Assembly (NCBI GenBank): GCA_964017185.1
Contig: OZ024877.1
Coordinates: 444,501-508,500, forward strand
Source: Rugalucina vietnamica
Taxonomy: Eukaryota; Mollusca; Bivalvia; Lucinida; Lucinidae
Length of the DNA stretch: 64,000 nucleotides
Direction: 5' to 3'
Position 1 is the stretch's first letter, and each line of letters opens with the position of its first letter. A program made the position numbers and the translations under genes. Of this stretch, positions 3,756 through 63,934 are shown piece after piece. A model generated the notes under the pieces. It made no database searches. It was not told the origin of the DNA and saw nothing but the letters and a program-made list of their open reading frames with translations.

Positions 3756-4201
3756 TGCCAAACCTTTAGAACTCATGTTTGAACAAAATGGAGATAATAA
3801 GTACCTGAGAACCTACATGGGTAAGTAAATGATTCCAAACGCCAACAGAAATCGTTGTAGAAAGAATTAAAAACGACTCAGTTTTATGCGACTCTAATAT
3901 TTGACCTCCACCTAGTTTATGGCTAATCTAATTTTCTGGAGCAGATGTTTACCACCAGGTTTTAAATTGTGTTATTCACTGAATACCATGTCTTTGACAT
4001 GATATCGAGGAAATTGTGTCATTACTTATGGGCTTTATGAAAAATTGATGAACGGGTCCATTGCATTTCTTATTTTGACGGGTATATATGTTTTATATGT
4101 ATTTTGGGTGTATTTGTATATTGTATTTTGAAAGCTCAGTGAAGAAGATTTGAACTGATTGACAGGAGTACGGTAGAAAACGCAGATTACGATGTCTTAT
4201 A

Positions 4202-10370: not shown

Positions 10371-11493
10371 TGAAAAAGTACAAGTAGGCAAAGATCAGGA
10401 AAAAGCGCAATCAGAAAAAGACTCCCACTCCAAAAACCAAAGTGGGAAAAAACCAAACTAACAATCAAGTACTTATACCATGAAAACATTTCGTAAGCCG
10501 AATGAGCAGCTATTTTCCCAATAGGTGGCCACTCAGTTACCTTAACTTAACTAAAACTATGCAAACATACATAAGGCACCAACAGCACAAAAATATTTTA
10601 AACACCAAGACATAAAACAAAAAGAACCACCACAGAAGTATCGACTTCGAACGATCAGTAACACAAAGTTACTGGCGGGTTTAAATCGATTTTACACGGC
10701 CGTAACCTCACCCTCAGCTTCTGCAGTGGTTCATAACATTTAGTTAGTTCTTCTGTCCTCGTGGTGAATCTCTAACTAGTAAATGAATCATCAAGAACAA
10801 ACAAACAAATCATGATAAACATCCTGATGAATCAAAAACCAGGACTCACAGATTCAGTAAGCTGCCCGACGATGGAGATCCCTGGGCGCCAAATAACTTA
10901 CTAACTCCGGAGCTAAAGAAAAACATCAGTTGGACCCCGGTGGGCCAAGCAACAGACAAGAAGCTCCGGCCCCAACCAACTAAAATGAATAGCTTTAAGT
11001 CGGGGCCATCATAGAGTCTGACGCCCGACCCACCGGCGTGCGTGCAATTAAAGAAGGCAGCATAGTTATCAACCGTGATTGGGTTAAAAACTAAGCATGC
11101 AGACTGTAGCATAACATTCAAGTTATAACCTATACATCTGTAACGTGTTATGATTTTTCTAAACTGAGAAGAAAAATCATTACTTCCTATAAGTTTCTTA
11201 AATTTGTAAACCAAGTCACCATAAAATTCTGGTTCCGAAAGACCCTTACTTAAAAGCGTCTTTAACCCAACATTATATTTGGAAATCAATTCATAGTGTC
11301 TACGATAAAATTTAGAAAAGGTTTTTCGGAGTTTATGATACCGACAGCCCTGTTGGAGAAGTTTGGCCGTTAAAGATTTATTTCGAGCGTTGAAGTCTGT
11401 AACATGATTGCAGACTCTAGCAAACCTAATAAGTTGCGAAATGTATACACCATAAGAAGCACGACGAGGAACGTCACCAGAATCAGAATTAGA
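10371..11493 (-). mobile_element. PLE, 3' half
   Basis: The 3' half of the most complete PLE in the window, antisense. It runs from the terminus AAGTACAAGTAGGC through about 475 nt of 3' UTR into the ORF C-terminus (minus strand, about 10990-11493). The C-terminal region contains DGDVPRRASYGVYIS, DFNARNK, RYHKLRKTFSKFYRRHYELI, SKGLSEPEFYGDLVYKFKKL and RYRCIGYNLNV, ending near NCT. No GIY-YIG endonuclease signature is seen. A CR1-type LINE at 11494-13956 splits it from the RT domain. Confidence 0.8.
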
Positions 11494-17895: not shown

Positions 17896-18014
17896 AGTCC
17901 TGAACCCTCGTTTTAGGCTTTTAGGGACTTCTCTCATCTTATCCATAGATATTCTTTCTTTGTCAGTTTATATAAGTTGTTTACATCTTCCTATTGTATT
18001 TCAGGCACGGGAAA

Positions 18015-19133
18015 ATGTCGAGCCTTTGTCAAAGATTGGATTTCATCGAGTGTCATGTAGCAGAAACACTTTGGAAGATATTCGCACCTTTGCTAATTGT
18101 AGTTGGCGTAATTGGGAACGCGGTGTCCATAGCTGTCATGTCGAGACAGCGCATGCGCCACACTACTACTTCGGTGTACCTCCGTCTTCTAGCTGTGTTT
18201 GATACAGTCATCCTTCTAGTCGTTTTACCGCGTAAATTATTACACTTCCACTCATCTGTCGAAATAAAAAATTTGAGTGTTTTCGCCTGTAAGCTCGTGC
18301 CATTTTTGACCACTTCTTCACTAAATCTTTCTTGGTGTCTTCTGTCTGTAATAACAATAGATCGACTCATACTTATACGATATCCTGTCTGGGCCAAGAA
18401 ACATTGCACAAGAAAATCAGCCCTGATCGTCTTCGCCATTTTGGTCTCAATCATAGTTGCTGTTAATTGCCATAGTATTCTGTTTCAAAATCTGCGATGG
18501 AAGGAGGTCATCTCGGCAGATAATACTACAGTTCGAGTAAACGAAAGATGTGTCCCAATACCAAACTGGTACTTGATGTTTCGAAACAAGGTCTGGCCAT
18601 TGATAATTCTCGTCGTTTTCAGCATGGTCCCCGTTATACTACAAATCGTGTGTAACGTTCTCTTGGCGAGGGAACTGGTTACTCGATCTCGTAAACGACA
18701 AGCCAGATCCCTGCAGGAAAGTAATAACCAACATGAGCGGGATCTGAGATCAGTAACACGCATGCTGATCGTGATCAGTGTGTTCTTTGTCATAAGCACA
18801 GTGCCCCAATGTATACAACTAACACTGCAGCCGTACATATTCAAACCTAGAATTGATCATAACATTGCTAAAAATTTATTGATGGTGGCGGTCATTCAGC
18901 TTCTAATGTACAGCAACAATGCGTTCAACTTTCTGCTATACACCCTTAGCGGAAAAGTTTTCAGAAAGGAGTTATGGTCAATGTGCGAGGAAGTAAAACG
19001 CAAAATGTTACAACGACTTGGCAGGAATGTCATACATCCAGATGTAACTCTTACCAGTGGTCGACGAACAAACTCCAAAGACAAAACACGAACTGAGGCC
19101 GTGGCATCAGGCTCTAAGGAAATGAAATTATGA
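18015..19133 (+). CDS. class A G-protein-coupled receptor (peptide-receptor-like)
   Basis: A 372-aa seven-helix receptor in one uninterrupted coding exon. The start chosen is the ATG at 18015. It lies 10 nt after a good splice acceptor (TTGTATTTCAG, 18004), so the upstream in-frame ATG at 17994 is probably intronic and a non-coding 5' exon is expected. TM1 has GVIGN. TM2 is LRLLAVFDTVILLVVLP. The extracellular Cys before TM3 (FACKL) pairs plausibly with NERC in loop 2, which also has an NTT glycosylation site. The TM3 end is TIDRLILIRYP, so DRL replaces the usual DRY. TM7 has NNAFNFLLYTL, a variant NPxxY region, then a basic amphipathic stretch and a Ser/Thr-rich tail. Invertebrate receptors of this shape are often annotated FMRFamide-, TRH- or GPR139-like. 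The ligand cannot be assigned. A broken paralogue lies at 28900. Confidence 0.85.
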   Translation: MSSLCQRLDFIECHVAETLWKIFAPLLIVVGVIGNAVSIAVMSRQRMRHTTTSVYLRLLAVFDTVILLVVLPRKLLHFHSSVEIKNLSVFACKLVPFLTTSSLNLSWCLLSVITIDRLILIRYPVWAKKHCTRKSALIVFAILVSIIVAVNCHSILFQNLRWKEVISADNTTVRVNERCVPIPNWYLMFRNKVWPLIILVVFSMVPVILQIVCNVLLARELVTRSRKRQARSLQESNNQHERDLRSVTRMLIVISVFFVISTVPQCIQLTLQPYIFKPRIDHNIAKNLLMVAVIQLLMYSNNAFNFLLYTLSGKVFRKELWSMCEEVKRKMLQRLGRNVIHPDVTLTSGRRTNSKDKTRTEAVASGSKEMKL

Positions 19134-27209: not shown

Positions 27210-27980
27210 AGGTACAAGTAGGCAAAGATCAGGAAAAGGCGCAATCAGAAAAAGATTCCCACTCCAAAAACCGAGGTGGGAAAAAAACCAAACTAACAGT
27301 CAGGTACTTATACCATGAAACATATCGCAAGCCGAATGAGCAGCTATTTTCCCAATAGGTGGCCACTCAGCTACCTTAACTTAACTAAAAATATGAAAAC
27401 ATATACATAAGGCGCCAACAGCACAAAAAATTTCCAAACACCAAGACATAAAACAAAAAGAACCACCACAGAAGTATCGACTTGGAACGATCAGTAACAC
27501 AAAGTTACTGGCGGGCTTAAACCGGTTTTACATGGCCATAACCTCACCCTCAGCTTCTGCAGTGGTTCATAACATTTACTTAGTTATTCGGCCCTCGTGG
27601 TGAATCTCTAACTAGTCAATGAATCATCAAGAACAAACAAATAAATCATGATAAACATCCTGATGAATCAAAAACCAGGACTCACAGACTGAGTAAGCTG
27701 CCCGACGATGGAGATCCCTGGGCGCCGAATAACCTACTAACTCCGGAGCAAAGGAAAAACACCAGTTGGACCCCGGTGGGCCAAGCAACAGACAAGAAGC
27801 TCCGGCCCCAACCAACTAAAATGAATAGCTTTATGTCGGGGCCATCATAGAGTCTGACGCCCGACCCACCGGCGTGCAATTAAAGAAGGCAGCATAGTTA
27901 TCAACCATGATTGGGTTAAAAACTAAGCATGCAGACTGTCGCATAACATTCAAGTTATAACCTATACGTCTGTAACGTAT
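27210..27980 (-). mobile_element. PLE 3' end with ORF terminus
   Basis: Well-preserved antisense copy from terminus GGTACAAGTAGGCAAAGATC through the whole 3' UTR to the ORF end (minus strand NLNVMRQSACLVFNPIMVDN, YAAFFNCTPVGRASDSMMAP). It is truncated near TATACGTCTGTAACG. It serves as the window's best reference for the 3' ~770 bp. Confidence 0.85.
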
Positions 27981-28403: not shown

Positions 28404-28899
28404 CCTTAAATCAAACATACGTGGAGCAATGTATGTCATACTTAACTTAGTCATTTTTGGCGATGGACATATTTTGTAACAGAAAACAAGGCAGACGAGG
28501 AACTGCTAGGGTCTACACATTTGTTTATATCTGCCTTCCACATAACAATTAACGTCTGATTTTCGAAAGCGTTACAACCAGCCTTCATATAGACTAACTA
28601 AAACTGGTGTGTACATAGTCTATAGTTTTGTTTTTTTGTTTTTTTTGTTTTTTTCTTATTTTTGCTGCAATACATAGATACGTGCATGACAGCATATTGT
28701 AACCGTGCGTCCTTCATTTTCACATTATCAGACCCACGGTATTTATTCCACACAGTCTTGTTTCTACACGTTACATATGGCGCGATTCATTTACTACTCA
28801 GTTTCAATTGGAACGGCAATTTTCTTCTTCATTTTCGTATGTGCGCATGGTCCAAACAGAAACTATACCGAGCTATATTTTTTATTTCAGACAAAGAGG

Positions 28900-29924
28900 A
28901 TGTCAGACATTTGTAGAAAATTGGACTTTGCCGAATGTTATATTACAGTTGTATTATGGAAGATAATTGCCCCTATGCTGCTAGTTGTTGGCGTAGCTGG
29001 GAACTTTCTATCTATAGCGGTCCTCTCGAGAAAGCGCATGCGCCATACAGCTACTTCGGTGTACCTTCGTCTTCTAGCCATTGTCGATTCATTGGTTCTT
29101 CTGGTGAATTTACCGCGCCAAGTAATATACTGGTACACTTCAGTGAGTGTTCGCGATATCAACACCGTTACCTGTAAAATGGTAAGGTTTCTAGCTCCGT
29201 CTTTCATAACCATGTCTTGGTGGCTTCTACCAATCATATCAATTGACAGATTAATATTGGTACGATATCCTATTTGGGCAAAGACAAATTGCAGTAAAAA
29301 GTTAGCTAAAGTCGTATTTACTATTTTGGTACTAGCAACCATGGCGACTCACTTTCATAGCATACTTTTTATGGATATAGCGAGTAAAGATTTCACTGTC
29401 CAGGGAAATATAACAAATAAGACAGTTCAAGTGTTTGGACTATGCGGTCCAGTCTCGGACTGGTATAGAGAATTCCAATAGTGTTTAACCTTGCACCTGT
29501 GAGCAGCCAGGTGGTGTGTAACGTTCTGTTGGTGAGGGAGCTTGTTATCCGATCTAACAAGAAAGCAGCGAACCAGAGAGGCCAACAGGACACTAGTGAC
29601 AACGATCAGCGCGATTTAAGATCCGTCACGCGCATGCTGATCGTCGTATGTATTTTCTTCGTGTTGAGTTCAGTACCAAAATTTCTACAGCTTCTTTTAA
29701 AGTCATATATATTTACACCAAAAACACCTCACAACACTGCAAAGGATTTGCTGTTCAGGGCCTGTGTACAGCTTCTAGTCCACAGCAGCAACGCGTTCAA
29801 CTTTCTACTTTACACACTCAGCGGAAAGGTGTTTAGGAAGGAACTGTGGTCTATGTGTCAACAAGGTAGACAAAAAATTTTGCATTGCTTGGGTAGGAAT
29901 GCTGTGTATCCTGGGGAAATGTAA
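28900..29924 (+). pseudogene. broken class A GPCR paralogue
   Basis: Close relative of the 18015 receptor. It shares DFAECYITVVLWKI, VGVAGNFLSIAVLSRKRMRH, SVYLRLLAIVDSL, SIDRLILVRYPIWAK, ERQ-like loop 3 (NDQRDLRSVTRML) and NAFNFLLYTLSGKVFRKELW. The ATG at 28900 follows an acceptor (TTTATTTCAG, 28890), mirroring the intact gene, so the two arose by DNA duplication rather than retroposition. After DWYREF the frame hits TAG (29479-29481). Alignment with the intact copy shows about 28 nt missing from TM5, which shifts the rest into another frame that resumes at IVFNLAPVSSQVVCNVLL. TM5 is lost, so no functional seven-helix receptor is expected. A genuine short intron spanning the gap is unlikely at this size. 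The C-tail is also shorter. Confidence 0.8.
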
Positions 29925-32361: not shown

Positions 32362-32497
32362 TTAAATTTGTAATTTTCTCTGGCTCCATCTTGACAGATT
32401 TAAAGGGTCACTGATGAGGCTTGACTAGCAGAAACCGCGGTATGGCCCATCTCATTAATGTTTTCAATGCTCTCAAGGGGGTTCAGTTTTATTTTTG
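32362..32497 (+). repeat. ribozyme repeat, short copy
   Basis: Starts within the body near TCTGGCTCCATCTTGACAG, includes the hammerhead (32405-32448), then CATCTCATTAATG, CAATGCTCTCAAGG and CAGTTTTATTTTTG. Only one ribozyme is present, so no monomer could be excised from this copy alone. Confidence 0.7.
32405..32448 (+). ncRNA. type I hammerhead ribozyme
   Basis: Self-cleaving RNA fold. Stem I pairs GGGUCA (32405-32410) with UGGCCC (32443-32448) over six pairs including one U-G. The catalytic core is CUGAUGA (32411-32417). Stem II is GCU-UGACU-AGC. GAAA is at 32431-32434. Stem III is ACC-GC-GGU (32434-32441), and predicted cleavage is after A32442 in GUA. A stem III of three pairs with a two-base loop is typical of Penelope-associated and retrozyme hammerheads. 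The G10.1 partner is A rather than C, a weak point. Confidence 0.8.
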
Positions 32498-33545: not shown

Positions 33546-33826
33546 GCGGAGGTATTCTGAGAAATCAGAAATTCATTAGCGGTTAAGATTCATTTTCTAA
33601 CCAACGTTTATTATTCATTTGGCTCTTTTTGGGAAATGCTAGTCTTTGTATCGACTTTCTTGTTTAAAGTTGCAAAATTACAGTATTACTCTGTGGCTCC
33701 ATTTTGCCAAATTTAAAGAGTCACTGAAGAGGCTTATGTAGCCGAAACCGCGGTATGGTCCATCCCTTTTCTCATTAATACGCTAACCGCTCTTAAAGGA
33801 TCTTGGTTTTATTTTTATTCAGTAAG
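33546..33826 (+). mobile_element. ribozyme repeat inserted in PLE 3' UTR
   Basis: Runs from TTTCAGCGGAGGTATTCTGA through GATTCATTTTCTAACCAACG, GACTTTCTTGTTTAAAG and CTCCATTTTGCCAAATTT to the hammerhead. It then reads CTCATTAATACGCTAACCGC, AAAGGATCTTGG and TTTTATTTTTATT. Its 3' end coincides with that of other copies. Both ends join PLE sequence, showing it moved as a discrete unit. Confidence 0.75.
33718..33761 (+). ncRNA. type I hammerhead ribozyme
   Basis: Stem I GAGUCA/UGGUCC (one A-C mismatch). Core CUGAAGA, where position 7, the tolerant site of the CUGANGA consensus, is A. Stem II is perfect, GGCU-UAUGU-AGCC (33731-33743). GAAA at 33744-33747. Stem III ACC-GC-GGU. Cleavage is predicted after A33755 (GUA). 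Probably still competent, though stem I is weakened. Confidence 0.75.
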
Positions 33827-34483: not shown

Positions 34484-35555
34484 TACAAGTAGGCAACGAT
34501 CAGGAAAAGGCGCAATCATAAAAATCCCCACTCCAAAAAAGGCGGGAAAAACCAAACTAACAATAAGGTACCTATATCATTAACACATTTCGTAAGCCGA
34601 ATGAGCATTTTTTTCCCAATAGGTGGCCACTCAGTTACATAAACTTAACTAAAATATGATAACATACATTAGGCGCCAACAGCACAAAACATTTTAAACA
34701 CCAAGACCTAAAACAATAAGAACCACCACAGAAGTATCGCCTTGGAACGATCAGCAATAGAAAATTACTGGCGGACTTAAACCGGTTTTACAGGTACCTA
34801 ACCTCACCCTCAGCTTCTGCAGTGGTTCAAAACATCCAGCCAGTTGTTCGGTCCTCGCGGCGAATCTCTAACTAGTCAATGAATCATCATGGACACACAA
34901 ATAAATCATGATAAATTTCATGATGAGTAAAAAACGAGGACCCACAGATTGAGTAAGCTGCCCGACGATGGAGATCCCTGGGCGCCCAATAACTTACTAA
35001 CTCCGGAGCAAAAGAAAAACACCAAGTTGAACCCCGGTGGGCCAAGCAACTGACAAAAAATTCCGGCCCCAACCAACTAAAATGAATAGCTTTATATCGT
35101 GGCCATCATAGAGTCTGACGCCCGACCCACCGTCGTGCAATTAAAGAAGGCAGCATAGTTATCAAACTAAGCATGCAGACTGTCGCATAACATTTAAGTT
35201 ATATCCTATACGTCTGTAACGCGTAATGGTTTTTCCGAATTGAAAAGAAAAATCATTCCTTCCTATTAGTTTCTTAAATTTGTAAACCAAGTCACCATAA
35301 AATTCTGGTTTCGAAAGGCCCTCGCATAAAAGGGTCTTTAGCCCAACATTAAAACTGGAAATCAGCTAGAAGTGTCTGCGATAAAATTAAGAAAAGGTTT
35401 TTCGAAGTTTATGATACCGATAGCTCTGCTGGAGAAGTTTGGATGTTAAACATTTATTTCGCGCATTAAAGTCCACAGCATGATTGCAGACTCTTGAAAA
35501 TTCTTGAAATTGCAGCGATCATGAATGTCTGACTTTCGCTGCCAGTTTTGATAAA

Positions 35556-35601
35556 GGGTCACTGATGAAGGCTCATTACCCGAAATTGTACAATATGGCC
35601 C
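35556..35601 (+). ncRNA. type I hammerhead ribozyme, unit 1
   Basis: Stem I GGGUCA (35556-35561) with UGGCCC (35596-35601). Core CUGAUGA (35562-35568). Stem II GG/CC with a CUCAUUA loop and an A-C mismatch at its base. GAAA at 35582-35585. Stem III AUUG-UA-CAAU (35585-35594). Cleavage is predicted after A35595. Stem II is short compared with the 41565 copy, so activity may be reduced. Confidence 0.75.
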
Positions 35602-35919
35602 ACCTCTCTTTGAATGTTTTTACTGCTTCCAAAGGATCTAACAATTATATTTTATTTGCTATTACTGCAGCTGGTGTTGTGCCGTATGGCGGCCCTAAAA
35701 AGTCTCCCCGTACATCATCCATAGTGCAGATTATATTTTCTTTTGATCCTTTGAGATCAGTGAAGATATTTGGAGTATTACAAATATGTTGTACGTTAAG
35801 AATCATCATCTTAACGGAATTTTGAATATTTGGCCGCTTTGGGAATATTAGTCTTTGATTTAGACTATACTGGTGAAAATCGATCATGAATGTCTGGCTT
35901 TCGCTGCCAGTTTTATAAA

Positions 35920-35965
35920 GGGTCACTGATGAAGGTTCATTACCCGAAATTGTACAATATGGCCC
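35920..35965 (+). ncRNA. type I hammerhead ribozyme, unit 2
   Basis: Same fold as unit 1. GGGUCA/UGGCCC stem I, CUGAUGA at 35926-35932, stem II loop UUCAUUA (unit 1 has CUCAUUA), GAAA at 35946-35949, stem III AUUG-UA-CAAU, cleavage after A35959. All core bases are intact. Confidence 0.75.
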
Positions 35966-36018
35966 ACCTCTCTTTGAATGTTTTACTGCTTCCAAAGGAT
36001 TCAATAATTATATTTTAT

Positions 36019-37020
36019 CTAGCAAACCTAATGAGTTGTAAAATGTATACGCCATAAGAAGCACGGCGAGGAACGTCACCATCCAAAAACGGAAAGTTTA
36101 CTATATCAAAATCAAAGTCATCGCGTTTTTCATAAATTTTAGAAGAAACGAATCCGTTTGCAATAGAAAGATGTAAGTCTAAAAATGGGGCTTCGGTGTC
36201 TGTGTTGTTTGCTTTATTCAACTGTAGTACAGGGGGATAAATTTGTTTGACCATGCCTTCAAAATAAGGATTGTCAATGTTCAAAAGGTCATCGAGGTAC
36301 CTAGAAGTCGAATTAAAAGCCGTGATAACATCAGCTTGGTTGTCATGGTTAAGAAAATCCATGAAGTCTCTTTCGTAGCAGTATAAAAATAGATCAGCTA
36401 CGAGAGGGGCGCAATTAGTACCCATCGGGATTCCAACAATTTGTCTGTATAACTTAGTTCCAAATCTAATATAAACATTATCCAGGAGATAGGATAAGGC
36501 ATCGCATACATTCTGACATGACCAAAGTGTATATCGACTTTGGTCAGAGGAAGTGAAAAATGCTTTTCTATCATTACAGGCCAAATAAAGTGAACCATAG
36601 TTTTTAATGCTCTTTTGAATGTCCACTCTATCAAATCGAGTATTTTTTTTAATCAGATTATGTGGCAATGTGGTATACAGAGTAGAAAAATCGTATGTGG
36701 ACAAGCTCGTCGCACGGAACCCTCTACACTTCAATTTACTGAGCACATCGCCAGAATTTTTTATTGACCAAAACCAAATTTTATTTGAAGTTTCATACAC
36801 CGTCTCACAGTATCGTATGACATGATATTTGATAGCACTAAGACAGGAAGTTAATAATTTAGAAATTCAGTGGTAGCACAAGAACTAGAATTAGCAATAA
36901 ATCTAGCTTTGTACGGTCTTTTGTGAAGCTTAGGTAACCAATACATCGTAGGAAGTTTTTCTTGGCCATTATTGACACAAACAAAAATCTTAACAGGTAA
37001 TTCATTTAAGTGAGCATAAC
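36019..37020 (-). pseudogene. Penelope-like RT fragment
   Basis: Minus-strand peptide from HLNELPVKIFVCVNNGQEKL and MYWLPKLHKRPYKARFIANS, then TYDFSTLYTTLPHNLI (motif A), GIPMGTNCAPLVADLFLYCY (motif B), STSRYLDDLLNID (motif C), NTDTEAPFLDLHLSI and DGDVPRRASYGVYI. Frameshifts lie near 36650 and 36865. The N-terminal VPADK block is missing. About 90% identical to the 13957 copy by eye. Confidence 0.8.
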
Positions 37021-37644: not shown

Positions 37645-37850
37645 ATAAAATATAAAGGTTTGATCCTTTGGAAACAATAAAAACATTCAAAGGGAGATAG
37701 CATGGACTATATTGTGCAATTTCCGGTAATGAACCCTCATCAGCCGGCACAGAAAGCCAGAATATTGTACTGCAATTTCGCAAAATTTATACGAGAGGTC
37801 TAAATCAAAGACACATTCCTAAGCGGGGTCAAATAATTTAAACATTTGGT
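37645..37850 (-). repeat. ribozyme repeat, degenerate copy
   Basis: Minus-strand subfamily B repeat. The hammerhead remnant (37703-37749) has CUGAUGA (37737-37743), GAAA (37720-37723) and a perfect stem III AUUG-CA-CAAU. Stem I strands (GCCGG against UAGUCC) no longer pair and the stem II base is G-G. It is probably inactive. Body segments TCTTTGATTTAGAC and TCTGGCTTTC match 35850-35905. Confidence 0.65.
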
Positions 37851-41520: not shown

Positions 41521-41712
41521 TTAGTTCCCTTGGAAGCAGAAAAACATTCAAAGTGAGATAGTATGGACTATAATGCGCAATTTCGGATAATGAATCCTCA
41601 TCAGTAACTCTTTTAAACCAGCAACGAAAGCCAGACTATAGTGCTGCAATTTCAAGAATTTATATACATGTACGAGAAGTCTAAATCAAAGACAAATTCC
41701 TAAACGGGGTCA
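41521..41712 (-). repeat. ribozyme repeat, subfamily B
   Basis: Minus-strand copy with body segments TTTGATTTAGACTTCTCGTA and TGGCTTTCGTTGCTGG before the hammerhead, and ATGTTTTTCTGCTTCCAAGG after it. Single ribozyme, adjacent to an antisense PLE terminus at 41717. Confidence 0.7.
41565..41610 (-). ncRNA. type I hammerhead ribozyme
   Basis: Minus strand: CUGAUGA (41598-41604), perfect stem II GGAU-UCAUU-AUCC (41585-41597), GAAA (41581-41584), stem III AUUG-CG-CAUU with one U-U mismatch, and cleavage predicted after the A at 41571. Stem I GAGUUA/UAGUCC has one A-C mismatch. This copy shows the subfamily B stem II in its intact form. Confidence 0.7.
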
Positions 41713-42622: not shown

Positions 42623-45600
42623 GTAAGTTGCCCAATTGAGTTTCGCCGTTTCTTTAACATTCGCCACATTGAAAAAAAAACATGAAATATTACTATATAA
42701 TTAGCAAAATAAAAACGAAAGATAAGCAAGCTTGGAAAACTGAAGATAAAAACATAAGAAATAAAACAATAAAGCTTCTAGTTATCTATTAACTCATTTA
42801 AGCCTGGCGTCCCTTTTATGGGACATAGGCAAACAGAATAGCCCCAGATGTGACGCCGCGTTCTGCGGCGTCCCATCTGGGGGAAATCTGTTTGCTTAGA
42901 GGATTTTCATCGAAAAATGAGATAAAAATAAAAAATCACTTCTAACACCCCTAAAAATGAAAGTGGACTCATCCAAATGATAATGCTGGAAGAATACATT
43001 CGTCAAATATGGGTTAAAACGTGACGCTTTCTTCCTGGACAATGGCGCCAGACTAGACGCCGCAGAAGGAGGGATGTATTAGCAAATGCCTTTATATAAT
43101 AACCTAAAAAATAATAAAATAAAATAAAAAAAGACCATCAGTATGTATATTCATTATTCATTAAATTATTTCAGTGACTACATTGGGCGCCTTATGGATC
43201 AAGCAGGTCGAGATATTGCTCACCATAGGCGTAAACGACAGGCAGGGATTTTGGGGCCTGATAATCGCCATAATATCCCGGTGCGGAAGGAACTCAGGAT
43301 GATGTCAGACTATGAAATTGATCGATTTTTCAGAGCCATTAATAGTGCTAAGAATAATAGGGTAGGTCAAGGTCATTTTAATCGGAAACTGTAATATCTT
43401 TTAACATTGTTTTTATTTTTTTAAACACCAAAAACACCCTCACTGTCAGTAAGACTTTATTAAATATTTTTTATGTACCTAATTGTCAATTTAGTTTTTT
43501 CAACCTCGGTCTTTGGAGTGGGGATTTATTTCTGATTGCGCCTATTCCTGATCATTGTCTACTGGTACCTTTTTATACTTGTCTGAAGTTCCTACATTAA
43601 CGTATACATGTATACTGTATTTTGATAATAAATGAAACAGGTATTATCATGATAAATGAGCCACCTCGTGGAAAAACCAACAATGTGGTTTCCGACCAGG
43701 TCCGACACAAACCGACTTGTGTCTTGGTGTTTGGAAAAATTTTTGTGCTGTTGGCGCCTTATGTATGTTTTCATATTTTTAGTTAAGTTAAGGTAACTGA
43801 GTGACCACCTATTGGGAAAATAGCTGCTCATTCGGCTTACGATATGTTTCATGGTATAAGTACCTGACTGTTAGTTTGGTTTTTTTCCCACCTCGGTTTT
43901 TGGAGTGGGAATCTTTTTCTGATTGCGCCTTTTCCTGATCTTTGCCTACTTGTACCTTTGTACAGTCACAGAAAAGAGCTAGAAGCTTGAAATTTCGGAT
44001 TTAAGTAGAAGAGGAATTGTACTATCCGAGTAGCGAAAACAAAGGCGCTGATAAGCTTCGCAGTTACTGCGAAGCTGATCTGCGCCTTTGTTTTCGCCTA
44101 TGCAAATTGTTGGTTTTCCCACGAGGCGGCTCAAATATATCTAAATTTTGGAAAATACCCATTATTTTGACTTGTTACATTGTACCAAAATGAGCTATTA
44201 TAAGCTCCATTTGTCTATTTACGGTTGATGTTTCCTGCTTAAGCTAAGTTAAGCATGATAAACAATTACTTTTTCTCCAAGTCCTATTAATCTGTATTCA
44301 GCTGACCTAATAGTAATTCCGTTCTATTTCAGTCGGCAATATTCGAACAAAACAAGTATGATGATATCGCTAATTTCCACACTGGTATAACGGCTGTCAC
44401 AGCTCACGGTGGTTGCAACTTCCACGGCTGGCACAGGGCATATTCATACATGTAAGTAGCTAGAAGTTTTTAACTATACGTTGATAATGTGACATACCCT
44501 CTTAAGAATCCAAGCATGCTGCTGCTACCTTGACAAAAGGTCGACCGCATTTAAATTTCAAACCATTTGTAATGTGATAATACACAAAATGACCTCGATA
44601 TCTTATAAAAAAAAGCAAACACACTGTTGTGTTTGCTAAATAGCTATGATATAATAGCCTGCTACGTTTTAATCCAAAGCGATCCTCTTGTTTGACCTGA
44701 TCGAAATCCTAAAAAGACGTTTTGATTCGGTGATGCTTAATTGTTCTTTTACACATCCTGATAAACGACTTTATATTTTGATTACAGCATGGAACAGGCG
44801 TTACGAGAGGAAGGCCCTGAGTTCGCAGATCTCACCATTCCCTATTGGTATAATCCACTGGAAGCGCGCATGCCCACGGCAGACCCAGAAACGAACGAAG
44901 CGGCGACTCAGTCGGCACTGTTTTCTGATCGTCTTATGGGCTCTTGCTCAGGGCGAGCAGTAGGTGGAATATTCGGGCCTAACGGCTGGAACTCGTCCAT
45001 TGGCGAGATTATACGAAACTGTGGCCAAGATGGTCCTATTATGTCAGATGGAATGATTTATAACGTAACTCGGCAACGGCGCATGCGTGATATCTGCGGT
45101 GAAGACTCGGAAATCTTTAACGATCTCGAGAACGCACATAACGGCGTCCACAGGTGGATTGACGGAAACATGGCATTACTATCGACGTCTGTTTTTGATC
45201 CGATTTTCTGGTTACACCATGTGTTTGTCGACATGGTATGGGAAGAATGGAGAGGCCACGCAAGAAGGGTGAACCGTGATGATCCTAATTATGACGTCAC
45301 GCTTGACTACCCGCTGAACCCCACCATCATGGGAGCTGCGGACGCTCAGGTGCCTGACGCCCCGATGGGGTTCCCTATTGCAGGACAGGAGAATGTAACA
45401 GTTATTGACGGACTGAGTGACGTTTTCACGGAACGCTTCTTCAGATACGCTCCGCCGCCCACATGTACGATACAAAGGCCTGATTGCGGTAGCAAATATA
45501 TCAAATGTGTGATTGATAGGCCCCGCGGTGCAGGTGGGAGGCCCCGGGCTATGTGTGTGGCTCGAACTTTGCAAGAGGTGATTGAATGGGAGGAAGAGCA

Positions 45601-47134
45601 AGCTAGACCGCCGCCACAACCCTGCCCGGACCCACCGCGCCCACCAATAGAGCCGCCCATCCAACCACCTATAGATCCACCCATTCATCCACCCATAGAT
45701 CCACCCATTCATCCACCCATAGATCCACCGATCCAGCCGCCAATAGAACCACCAATTCTTCCACCTATCGATCCGCCAATTCATCCACCACTACCACCCA
45801 AGCGAGAGATAATACCTATTCAAAATACGTTTTGCTTGAATGGGAAGTGCGATTCCAACCAATGGGCAGTGTTTCCTATCAAATTGATAATACGACGTCC
45901 GCCTGAGTACAAAGAGTATGGGTCTTATCCGGTGGAACATGGAAGGATCAATAAGATACGTGGTGATATCTACTCCCCAGGGGCATATAGTAACGTAAAC
46001 AGACATTTTAGAAACACAGACCGAGCTGCTGTATACGAAGATTGCCAGTCTCCGGACGAACCAACGAATGAGATTTATATTAAATCTATTGGTCTTAACT
46101 ACGAAGGGATTTACAAAGAATTCGCCATTATTGACCGGCGTTTGCCCATGACTGTCGCAACGTCATATATGGCCGTCAGAAAACCAACGTCAGATATCGA
46201 CGAATCAATTGCAATGTTGCATGCTCAGGACAGATGTGGTCGGGTGTGTAAGCCGATTTGTAAAGTACCAGGCACTGAGGTGTTCAAGCCCTGCTCTGGC
46301 GCTGTTGCCCTGACCGGAAAATACCCCCTGATGTTCGGCAACTCATTCGGAGACGCTGTTCTAGACGTTTGGGACTTTAACACGGATAAATCTTGTCCTC
46401 AACTCACAACACAAAACATAATGATTAGTTTCTACTGCGATTACACATCTGATTGGATCTGGCCCACAGAAGAGCCACCCGTCACAACACATAATACCAT
46501 GGGAAAGCCCTTACCACCGCTTGCCCAAACACAACAGACACCAGGTAGCTTATGTTCTATAGATTTATTCAGATTAAAAGTCACATTTAACTTTAGAAGA
46601 TATATAATTATTCCCTCCTAGTATTAGTAAGACCATTTCAAAGCCTTCTCCTCACATCATATTTTAGTTTTCGGACTCACTGCCCGAAATTCTTAGTCTG
46701 TATATTAACTCAAACAAACTTTTGTTTAGTAACCCGTGAAACGATTTCAATGAAATAGCTGCCGAAAAACAGCTGTGTTATTAAAAGACTTAAATGTTTT
46801 TTTATTTCTTTCAGGTTGCGTTGTTGGTTACCGGTGCACCGTCATGTTACCTTGCTCACACATGGTCCCGTGCGAGGAGGGGAGAGTGTACGAATGTCAC
46901 AACGCCTGTCATGGTTACGGGGTGTGCGCCAGGGGGAAATTCTTTATGACTTATTGTATGGGTAGGGGAGAAACATACGATCCGAGAGTGAAAAAGTGTG
47001 TACGGGGCTACTGTAACCCGAGAACGTCAGGGGTTCAAAATCCTATTGCCCGGAGGGCTAACATGAGAAGGGGTCGCCTCGGATTAGGTCGAGCCCGCGG
47101 AGGGGGCCTAGGGGCTGGAATCATTAAGAAATAA
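42375..47134 (+). CDS. molluscan tyrosinase (secreted type 3 copper oxidase)
   Basis: Five exons join in frame: 42375-42622, 43175-43361, 44333-44451, 44788-46544, 46815-47134. All internal junctions have GT/AG and compatible phases. From the ATG at 42420 the product is about 861 aa, but the exon begins earlier in phase with LGLFIATIVCC, part of a signal peptide, so the true start is in an unseen upstream exon. Copper A histidines are in ANFHTG (~146), TAHGG (~155) and HGWHR (~164). Copper B histidines are in NAHNGVH (~287, ~291) and FWLHH (~314). A Pro-rich linker, a second conserved domain and a Cys-rich tail follow. Molluscan tyrosinases oxidise phenols for shell periostracum, pigment and immunity; which role applies here is not visible. 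PLE fragments and foldbacks fill the introns. Confidence 0.9.
42789..43018. mobile_element. TTAA-type MITE, copy 2
   Basis: Within the first recognised tyrosinase intron. Same ends and hairpin as 24603-24830 (TTAACTCATTTAAGCCTGG, GACGCCGCGTTCTGCGGCGTC, GTCAAATATGGGTTAA). About 85-90% identical by eye. Confidence 0.75.
43175..43361 (+). CDS. tyrosinase exon 2
   Basis: Acceptor TATTTCAG (43174), donor GTAGGT (43362). Encodes DYIGRLMDQAGRDIAHHRRK and RKELRMMSDYEIDRFFRAIN, the helix that precedes the copper A site in tyrosinases. It contains a dibasic RRKR that could be a processing site. Confidence 0.85.
43468..43573 (+). mobile_element. PLE 3' tail in tyrosinase intron
   Basis: Sense 5'-truncated fragment from TATGTACCTAATTGTCAATT through TTTGGAGTGGGGATT and TGATTGCGCCTATTCC to CTGGTACCTTTTT. 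Confidence 0.7.
43658..44130. repeat. foldback element interrupted by PLE
   Basis: Outer arms GAGCCACCTCGTGGAAAAAC and GTTTTCCCACGAGGCGGCTC. Inner palindrome at about 44029-44096 (AAAACAAAGGCGC...GCGCCTTTGTTTTC around CTTCGCAGTTACTGCGAAG). A sense PLE 3' end (43719-43959) is inserted after CCGACTTGT. The uninterrupted relative at 48765-48998 shows the empty arrangement. Located in the tyrosinase intron before exon 3. Confidence 0.75.
43719..43959 (+). mobile_element. PLE 3' end inside a foldback
   Basis: Sense copy beginning GTCTTGGTGTTTGG and ending TTTGCCTACTTGTACCTTTG, with all intermediate landmarks (GTTGGCGCCTTATG, GTAACTGAGTGACCACC). It is flanked by foldback sequence on both sides. 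Confidence 0.8.
44333..44451 (+). CDS. tyrosinase exon 3, copper A
   Basis: Acceptor TTCTATTTCAG (44332), donor GTAAGT (44452). Encodes YDDIANFHTGITAVTAHGGC and NFHGWHRAYSY with the three copper A histidines. Phase 2 at the 3' end joins exon 4 as ATC ATG GAA. Confidence 0.88.
44788..46544 (+). CDS. tyrosinase exon 4, copper B and Pro-rich linker
   Basis: Acceptor TTTTGATTACAG (44787), donor GTAGCT (46545). Contains PYWYNPLEARMP, GPNGWNSSIGEIIRNCG, NAHNGVHRWIDG and DPIFWLHHVFVDMVWEEW. A 64-codon Pro-rich array of PPI(D/E/H/Q)-type units follows (45609-45800), then a domain with YGSYPVEHGRINKIRGD, CGRVCKPICKVPG and CPQLTTQNIMISFYCDY, as in other long molluscan tyrosinases. Confidence 0.88.
45640..45800 (+). 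repeat. in-frame 24-nt minisatellite in tyrosinase
   Basis: Tandem units CCACCCATAGATCCACCC plus ATTCAT and variants encode PPIDPPIH, PPIEPPIQ and PPIEPPIL. Two adjacent units are identical at the nucleotide level, suggesting recent slippage and likely length polymorphism. Confidence 0.85.
46815..47134 (+). CDS. tyrosinase last exon, Cys-rich tail
   Basis: Acceptor TTTATTTCTTTCAG (46814), stop TAA at 47132-47134. Encodes GCVVGYRCTVMLPCSHMVPC, YECHNACHGYGVCARGKFF and GETYDPRVKKCVRGYC, then a basic Gly/Arg tail. The Cys spacing and YDPRVKKC resemble chitin-binding peritrophin-type domains, which is suggestive only. It would suit a protein anchored in shell matrix. Confidence 0.8.
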
Positions 47135-63050: not shown

Positions 63051-63934
63051 AAGGACGCTTTTAGGTGAGGGTCTTTCGGAACCTGAATTTTATGGTGACT
63101 TGATTTGCAGGTTTGGGGGCTTATATGAATTAATGATTTTTCTTTTCAATTTAGAAAAATCACAACACGTCACGGGCGTATGGGTTGTGACTTGAATGTT
63201 GTGCGGCGGTCTGCGTGCTTGGGTTTTGGCCCAGTCATGGTTGGTGGCTGTGCTGTCTTCTTTTATTGCACGCCGATGGGTCGGGCGTCAGACTCTATGA
63301 TGGCCCCGACCTAAAGCTATTCGTTTTAGTTGGTTGGGGCCGGAGCTTCTTGTCTGTTGCTTGGCCCACCGGTGTCCAACTGGTGTTTTATTTTTGCTCC
63401 GGAGTTAGTAGGTTATTCGGCGCCCAGGGATCTCCATCGTCGGGCAGCTTGCTCAATCTGTGGGTTCTGTGTTTTGATTCATCGGGGTGTTTATCTTGAT
63501 TTATATGTTTGTTCTTGGTGGTTCGTTGACTGGTTGGAGATTCACCGCGTGGGCCGAGGTGCTGGCTGAGTGTTGTGAGCCGCTGCGGAGGCTGAGGGTG
63601 AGGTTACGCGCCTGTAAAACTGGTTTAAGCCCGCCAGTAACTTTGTGTTACTGATCGTTCCAAGGCGATACTTCTGTGGTGCTTCTTTTTGTTTTATGTC
63701 TTGGTGTTTATAAATTTTTGTGCTGTTGGCGCCTTATGTGTGTATTTATAGTGTTAGTTAAGTTAAGGTAACTGAGTGGCCACCTATCGGGAAAATAGCT
63801 GCTCATTCGGCTTACGATATGTTTCATGGTATAAGTGCCTGATTGTTAGTTTGTTGTTTCCCACCTCGCTTTTTGGAGTGGGAATATTTTTCTGATTGCG
63901 CCTTTTCCTGATCTTTGCCTACTTGTACCTTTTT

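Follow-up and report, generated by a model that had tools for sequence, protein, structure and literature searches.

A hammerhead retrozyme family of Rugalucina vietnamica carries, close to a fixed 3′ end, a 41-nt block of a Penelope-like element that probably mobilises it

By the sequence criteria tested, a short insertion in the window (the whole 64,000-nt stretch of Rugalucina vietnamica contig OZ024877.1 that was analysed) belongs to the animal non-LTR retrozymes, and its family has in common with a family of Penelope-like elements (PLEs) a 41-nt block lying just past a fixed 3′ end in each. In our view the retrozyme is likely to owe its mobility to this block, by way of the PLE family itself or of a close relative that also has it; the block would probably tell the PLE enzyme where copying starts. 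A sequence-only reading of the locus had reported tandem hammerhead ribozymes; the fixed 3′ end and the PLE-shared block, both of which carry the mechanism proposed below, were absent from it, and the link between retrozyme and PLE outweighs the original hammerhead observation in importance. The features of the locus, in window positions, are as follows.

35050..35117, minus strand: SECIS-like element of the interrupted PLE (29.6 bits, below the gathering score of 35)
35200..35491, minus strand: C-terminal part of the PLE reverse transcriptase past the insertion (translation; empty-site alignment)
35492..35494, no strand: left target-site duplication, TCT (aligned with the empty sites at about 11420 and 62587; letters checked)
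35495..36017, plus strand: retrozyme insertion, 1.4 units (direct repeats; at least 86 genome matches; empty site in two paralogous PLE copies)
35556..35601, plus strand: hammerhead copy 1, stem II weakened, predicted cleavage 35595/35596 (motif reading, descriptor, covariance model)
35596..35656, plus strand: tail of copy 1, from the cleavage site to the fixed 3′ end of the family, unit position ~61 (array ends)
35665..35729, plus strand: predicted hairpin containing the 41-nt block (fold only; weak covariation)
35676..35716, plus strand: 41-nt block common to retrozyme and PLE (40/41 in the window copy; 41/41 in the family unit used as query)
35920..35965, plus strand: hammerhead copy 2, predicted cleavage 35959/35960 (motif reading, descriptor, covariance model)
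35960..36017, plus strand: tail of copy 2, the real 3′ end of the window insertion (array ends, empty-site alignment)
36018..36020, no strand: right target-site duplication, TCT (empty-site alignment; letters checked)
36018..36866, minus strand: PLE reverse-transcriptase ORF cut by the insertion (RYLDD motif; RVT_1 weak, E 0.18; at least 137 genome relatives)

The extent first given for the element, 35493..36018, identified the right locus, and its boundaries are corrected here to the 523 nt (about 1.4 units) at 35495-36017, bounded by TCT on both sides. Within the insert, direct repeats of ~140 nt align as three ungapped blocks of 97%, 92% and 97% identity. When its flanks were joined, they aligned through the junction with two other PLE copies of the window (near 11420 and 62587), and these empty sites imply a 3-bp target-site duplication for the window copy. 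The paralogous PLE copies with these empty sites show the insert to be a younger mobile element inside an older one, where it sits antisense, on the plus strand, within the reverse-transcriptase ORF of a minus-strand PLE. The claim that it has no protein-coding content was borne out: in the ORF listing, nothing overlaps it but two stop-to-stop frames (105 and 120 aa) of the kind that arise by chance. The layout had been likened both to animal retrozymes and to Penelope terminal repeats. The first likeness is supported: the family is non-coding, its thousands of copies are dispersed short tandems, and its type I hammerhead shows compensatory change. The second is not: identity as a PLE terminal repeat was rejected, given the opposite orientation of the surrounding PLE, which is the insertion target, the non-coding nature of the insert and the empty site, and the PLE unit L080 has no recognisable hammerhead. 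An autonomous PLE encodes a reverse transcriptase and a GIY-YIG nuclease, neither of which is found in the 523-nt insert. The 364-nt spacing of the cleavage sites is correct for the window copy but not as the unit length of the family, which is ~379 nt, because the window copy has a 14-15 nt deletion relative to that unit; release of a 364-nt monomer from it is doubtful, because hammerhead copy 1 is weakened. Elsewhere the window contains two GPCR-like ORFs (17976-19133 and 28690-29924) and, read by eye, a tyrosinase-like ORF with proline-rich repeats (44765-46621, plus strand).

A genome search returned at least 86 retrozyme matches (40 scored of 4861 candidates), from which a non-coding family unit of ~379 nt with a GC content of 36.1% was obtained. 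The units stand head-to-tail in arrays of 1.4 to ~7 units at dispersed sites with unrelated flanks. With the arrays oriented on the cleavage site, taken as unit position 1, automatic chaining placed the 3′ ends of 46 of 50 distinct arrays at unit positions 60-72. Lower-identity pieces prolong three further arrays (L032, L042 and L073) to 61-65, and the fourth, L011, interrupted by a PLE fragment that has inserted into it, resumes and ends at 61. A true exception is L065, outside the list of 50, whose array ends near position 7; read by hand, 50 of 51 arrays thus end ~61 nt past the cleavage site. The 5′ ends are scattered over 43 distinct positions among the 50 arrays, and their distribution, although non-uniform (KS p 0.004), should not be over-read, the deviation perhaps arising because the choice of queries favours long copies. 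With a mid-unit query, neutral between the two ends, the newly found arrays had the same 3′ end, L065 excepted. A fixed 3′ end combined with scattered 5′ ends is characteristic of reverse transcription from a fixed internal start.

Units diverge by 1.6% within an array versus 3.5% between arrays (158 versus 10402 pairs), and only 54 of 105 units have their closest counterpart in their own array; in L002, L015, L031 and L039, units overlapping by at least 100 nt do not differ at all. When class A is compared with class B, positions 54-132 are nearly unchanged and the rest has diverged. Target-site duplications are 3 bp in the window copy, 11 bp in L041 and ~9 bp in L049, most arrays being ambiguous; in metazoan non-LTR retrozymes such duplications, when present, exceed 4 bp. 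The signal for regular duplications is weak, 5 of 44 arrays scoring at least 7 against 1.1 expected. Three loci have features of their own. In L011, the fragment at ~2383-2550 (oriented) is a 5′-truncated PLE piece inserted in the retrozyme tail and ending at the fixed 3′ end of the PLE, a nesting that is the reverse of the one in the window. In L027, at ~1440-1475 (oriented), the 5′ flank is PLE-like and the 3′ flank does not look by eye like its continuation, a possible chimeric insertion or target deletion. Beside the exceptional end of L065, ~1790-1830 (oriented) carries CTGATGAG...GCGAAACGTC, which has the look of a minimal hammerhead of PLE type from a different family.

Scored relatives of the PLE interrupted by the insert number at least 137, from 17887 candidates; many have identical scores and long ORFs, and some stand in tandem, 4223 nt apart. 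In the tandem at L080 the order is reverse-transcriptase ORF, spacer, GIY-YIG-like ORF and then the next reverse transcriptase, the GIY-YIG match (E 0.0075, below the Pfam cut-off) thus lying upstream of a reverse transcriptase. An upstream GIY-YIG nuclease is the arrangement of Naiad-type PLEs. In this family, too, the 3′ end is fixed: of the 28 matches to the PLE body in the window, 24 stop at L080 positions 2165-2171; when the fetched loci were added, 64 of 85 stopped at the same end and 6 ran past 2175, overlapping loci being counted repeatedly. With 24 ends at one PLE position within 64 kb, the window is a PLE graveyard of unusual density. The partner PLE was also searched for a hammerhead of its own, an idea that was dropped because the best score in L080, the sole unit examined, was 7.4 bits (E 8.3); a PLE in which no hammerhead is recognisable still forms identical tandem copies. 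SECIS elements above the Rfam gathering score occur in PLE copies at 10953-11020 (minus), 27789-27856 (minus) and 63289-63356 (plus) of the window, and L080 has an in-frame TGA (3848-3850) between two ORFs of one frame; taken together, these suggest that the partner PLE may encode a selenoprotein.

Comparison of the retrozyme unit with a 5-kb PLE stretch revealed one common segment only: unit positions 81-121 equal L080 positions 2186-2226 at 41 of 41 letters (E 1e-16). In each element this block lies 16-19 nt beyond the fixed 3′ end, its first letter being 17 nt past that of the PLE (2169) and 19-20 nt past that of the retrozyme (61-62). It recurs in all six further PLE loci, with a single difference in one. 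Genome-wide, 8642 sites matched the block with at most 3 mismatches (0 for the reversed control), and context patterns counted 690 sites as PLE and 10011 as retrozyme, figures that do not sum because the patterns differ in length. Among young A units the mismatch rate was 0.0138 in the block and 0.0115 in the tail; unit stretches in 121-180 were also low, so that the block is not unique in its conservation among these units. The same irregular hairpin core is predicted around the block in both RNAs, with different basal stems, the PLE hairpin having a z of -2.06 and that of the retrozyme being no more stable than its shuffles (z -0.12). Covariation in the block hairpin was weak (term 0.2), too weak to serve as proof of structure, and was dropped as such. 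The pairing of retrozyme and PLE was seen in one genome.

One reading of these data, which we regard as improbable, is that the block is PLE leader sequence acquired by chance, without a role, and that another element, a LINE, moves the retrozyme. It would fit the weak covariation of the hairpin, and binding of the block by the PLE is itself read from sequence; against it stand the equal offset of the block from the fixed end in both elements, its retention in all the further PLE loci and across diverged retrozyme classes, and the internal fixed ends, which resemble those of the PLE PAc considered below. A satellite repeat spread by unequal exchange without retrotransposition would account for head-to-tail arrays of up to ~7 units, but it is very improbable and was dropped on the dispersed sites and the single fixed 3′ end, the arrays being of ~1.4-7 units with unrelated flanks and the window copy having a clean empty site. 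Recognition of the block by the PLE enzyme is the reading retained in what follows.

The hammerhead motif was recognised in both repeats, as the sequence-only reading had stated, although the full type I hammerhead claimed for each was not confirmed in copy 1. A strict descriptor matched the window twice, at 32411 and at 35926 (copy 2), and had 0 matches in 200 first-order Markov windows; it did not match copy 1, whose stem II is reduced to two G-C pairs by a U-to-C change. The topology in the units is type I, with stem I open and stems II and III closed, and the commonest core, that of 140 of the 183 descriptor matches in the fetched loci, has A-C at pair 10.1-11.1. A covariance model scored copies 1 and 2 at 64.6 and 68.3 bits, both being members of its training set, and scored a diverged hammerhead outside the training set (37704-37745, minus strand) at 38.4 bits (E 5e-10). 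In 11 diverged sequences of the same genome, picked for their resemblance to the motif and several of them decayed copies, pairing was kept in 91.7% of cells versus 82.8% after shuffling, doubly changed cells numbered 15 versus 5.6 +/- 2.0 (reached in 0 of 500 shuffles), and sliding the partner strand by 1-3 columns lowered pairing to 12-47%. Further pair types, one of five covariation measures, showed no excess (8 versus 9.8 shuffled), and pairs with both sides changed were not unusually numerous, 176 of 500 shuffles reaching the same number. Judged from these alignments, the motif is real and is under compensatory change across diverged copies. Among young A units the hammerhead core also had the lowest mismatch rate of the regions compared, 0.008 versus 0.035 in the middle of the unit, and this, together with the covariation across classes, indicates that the hammerhead is under selection.

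The Rfam check proposed at the outset came back negative: no hammerhead match was found in the window at the gathering score, in a 1.5-kb slice at E<=10 or in a 71-nt slice of copy 2, and nowhere in the window was the gathering score of RF00163 (Hammerhead_1) reached. Genome-wide RF00163 again found no match, yet it was silent in all 14 control genomes too, so this last result carries no weight. The minimum-energy fold of the isolated motif was not a hammerhead (z ~0). One property of the motif reconciles it with the absent Rfam match, the weakened copy 1 and the non-hammerhead fold of the lone motif, namely the perfectly palindromic sequence of its stem III strand, which reads AUUGUACAAU, AUUGCGCAAU and ACCGCGGU in the three classes examined. 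Co-folding of two copies gave a complete dimeric hammerhead for 2 of 5 sequences tried, those of the L044 and L030 types; the other three, namely two young sequences of type A and the one at 32411, formed the intermolecular stems I and III without the full core. These predicted folds suggest that the retrozyme hammerhead probably works as a dimer. Lunse et al. reportedly described, in 2017, dimeric minimal hammerheads of PLEs with a palindromic stem III that are weak as monomers. A palindromic stem III and a weak monomer are common to those hammerheads and the present one, which differs in being located in a non-coding retrozyme. In the available parts of two papers, the hammerheads of PLEs and of amphibian retrozymes are described as dimeric (PMC7229834, PMC7761336). 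Hammerheads of a second class, in which stem III is ACCGCGGU and the tail is related, lie at 32405-32448 and 33718-33761 of the window (plus strand), and L025, L030 and L055 have the same tail architecture; diverged retrozyme copies with hammerhead relics are found on the minus strand at 37704-37745 and 41565-41610.

For the mobilisation we propose the following sequence of events: 1) transcripts of the repeated unit would be cut by hammerheads, probably dimeric; 2) the monomers would be ligated into 379-nt circles; 3) the PLE protein would bind the hairpin that holds the 41-nt block and nick AT-rich DNA; 4) reverse transcription would start at the U-rich stretch immediately 5′ of the block hairpin; and 5) on circular (or multi-unit) RNA, the enzyme would copy more than one unit and stop at random, leaving 3′-fixed, 5′-truncated tandem arrays. 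That the template is circular seems to us reasonably probable. The fold predicted for a unit in circular form has a z of -3.3 and 65% of its nucleotides paired. We also lean, a little less firmly, towards the fuller reading in which block and hairpin form an RNA address read by the PLE enzyme, so that the retrozyme family would be the SINE of the PLE, the address and a dimeric hammerhead together yielding an endless circular template.

A close parallel is PAc, the PLE Poseidon of Anolis, for which the following is taken from the accessible portion of one paper (PMC11167929). With the purified enzyme, reverse transcription of the PAc ORF RNA starts internally at nt 111-118, the hammerhead cuts at 26 and RNA up to nt 172 is required (PMC11167929). 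Distances computed from these numbers put the start 85-92 nt past the cut and the end of the needed RNA ~55-60 nt beyond the start; in the retrozyme the start would lie 61 nt past the cut and the block ends ~60 nt beyond it. The retrozyme would resemble PAc in its internal start downstream of the hammerhead cut and in its AT-rich targets, and as PAc requires template RNA 3′ of its start (PMC11167929), so the retrozyme block lies 3′ of the putative start. They differ in that PAc encodes its own enzyme, with a C-terminal nuclease (PMC11167929), whereas the retrozyme is without coding content and, in the PLE taken as its putative partner, the GIY-YIG-like ORF precedes that of the reverse transcriptase.

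The same partner and fixed start could also act on a different template, the uncut multi-unit transcript of existing arrays, with no circle and with the hammerhead acting elsewhere or not at all. We regard this as unlikely, though it deserves serious weight. Identical tandem copies of the PLE arise where no hammerhead is recognisable, so that tandem arrays alone are no proof of a circular template; for PAc in vitro, the same portion of PMC11167929 describes hammerhead cleavage as dispensable, uncleaved RNA being inserted; and the hammerhead looks weak both in window copy 1 and as an isolated motif. This account is less easily squared with a hammerhead under selection, or with the absence of unit differences in L002, L015, L031 and L039, which the copying of one circle explains simply, and published animal retrozymes form circles, the available part of PMC7229834 describing abundant small circular RNAs in the species studied. 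The circular template is the reading that we prefer.

As to class, the family has the characters of metazoan non-LTR retrozymes: a type I hammerhead per unit, a GC content below 50%, no coding content, and short tandem repeats (about 170-400 nt) in large number, here ~10000 block sites in retrozyme context. In the portions of PMC7229834 available, such retrozymes, notably the ~350-390 bp repeats of Mytilus galloprovincialis, likewise have type I hammerheads in non-coding tandem repeats with thousands of copies and low GC; their RNA is self-paired, as that of the present family is predicted to be, and PLEs are proposed as their mobilisers. The likeness to the Mytilus type is one of description, and the present family differs in its fixed 3′ end and in the block common to one PLE family. 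Its stem III palindrome suggests dimeric cleavage, which the same parts of that paper report for vertebrate rather than most invertebrate retrozymes (PMC7229834). Plant LTR retrozymes, in the accessible text of PMC4918200, are also non-autonomous elements flanked by hammerheads for which a circular RNA is proposed. Unlike the window element, plant LTR retrozymes have type III hammerheads, LTRs of ~350 bp and a Gypsy partner, as described in part in PMC7229834 and PMC7761336.

Cervera and de la Pena (2020, PMC7229834, in the part available) had already proposed PLEs as retrozyme mobilisers, because the two have hammerheads in common and occur together, and a review of 2020 states that no motif known in animal retrozymes betrays the mobiliser (PMC7761336). 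In the literature searched, mostly without subscription journals and preprints, we found neither a fixed 3′ end of animal retrozymes nor a sequence in common with a PLE. The 41-nt block is a candidate for the missing motif. One genome thus supplies a named partner family, a fixed reverse-transcription start and a candidate recognition element common to both letter for letter, by which the mobiliser proposal becomes testable with defined RNA variants, and a fixed end together with a common block at equal offset provides a comparative signature for other animals. If the link is true and general, the mobiliser of animal retrozymes would be identified and their tandem, 3′-fixed arrays explained, and the link would account for the spread of ribozyme elements in animals.
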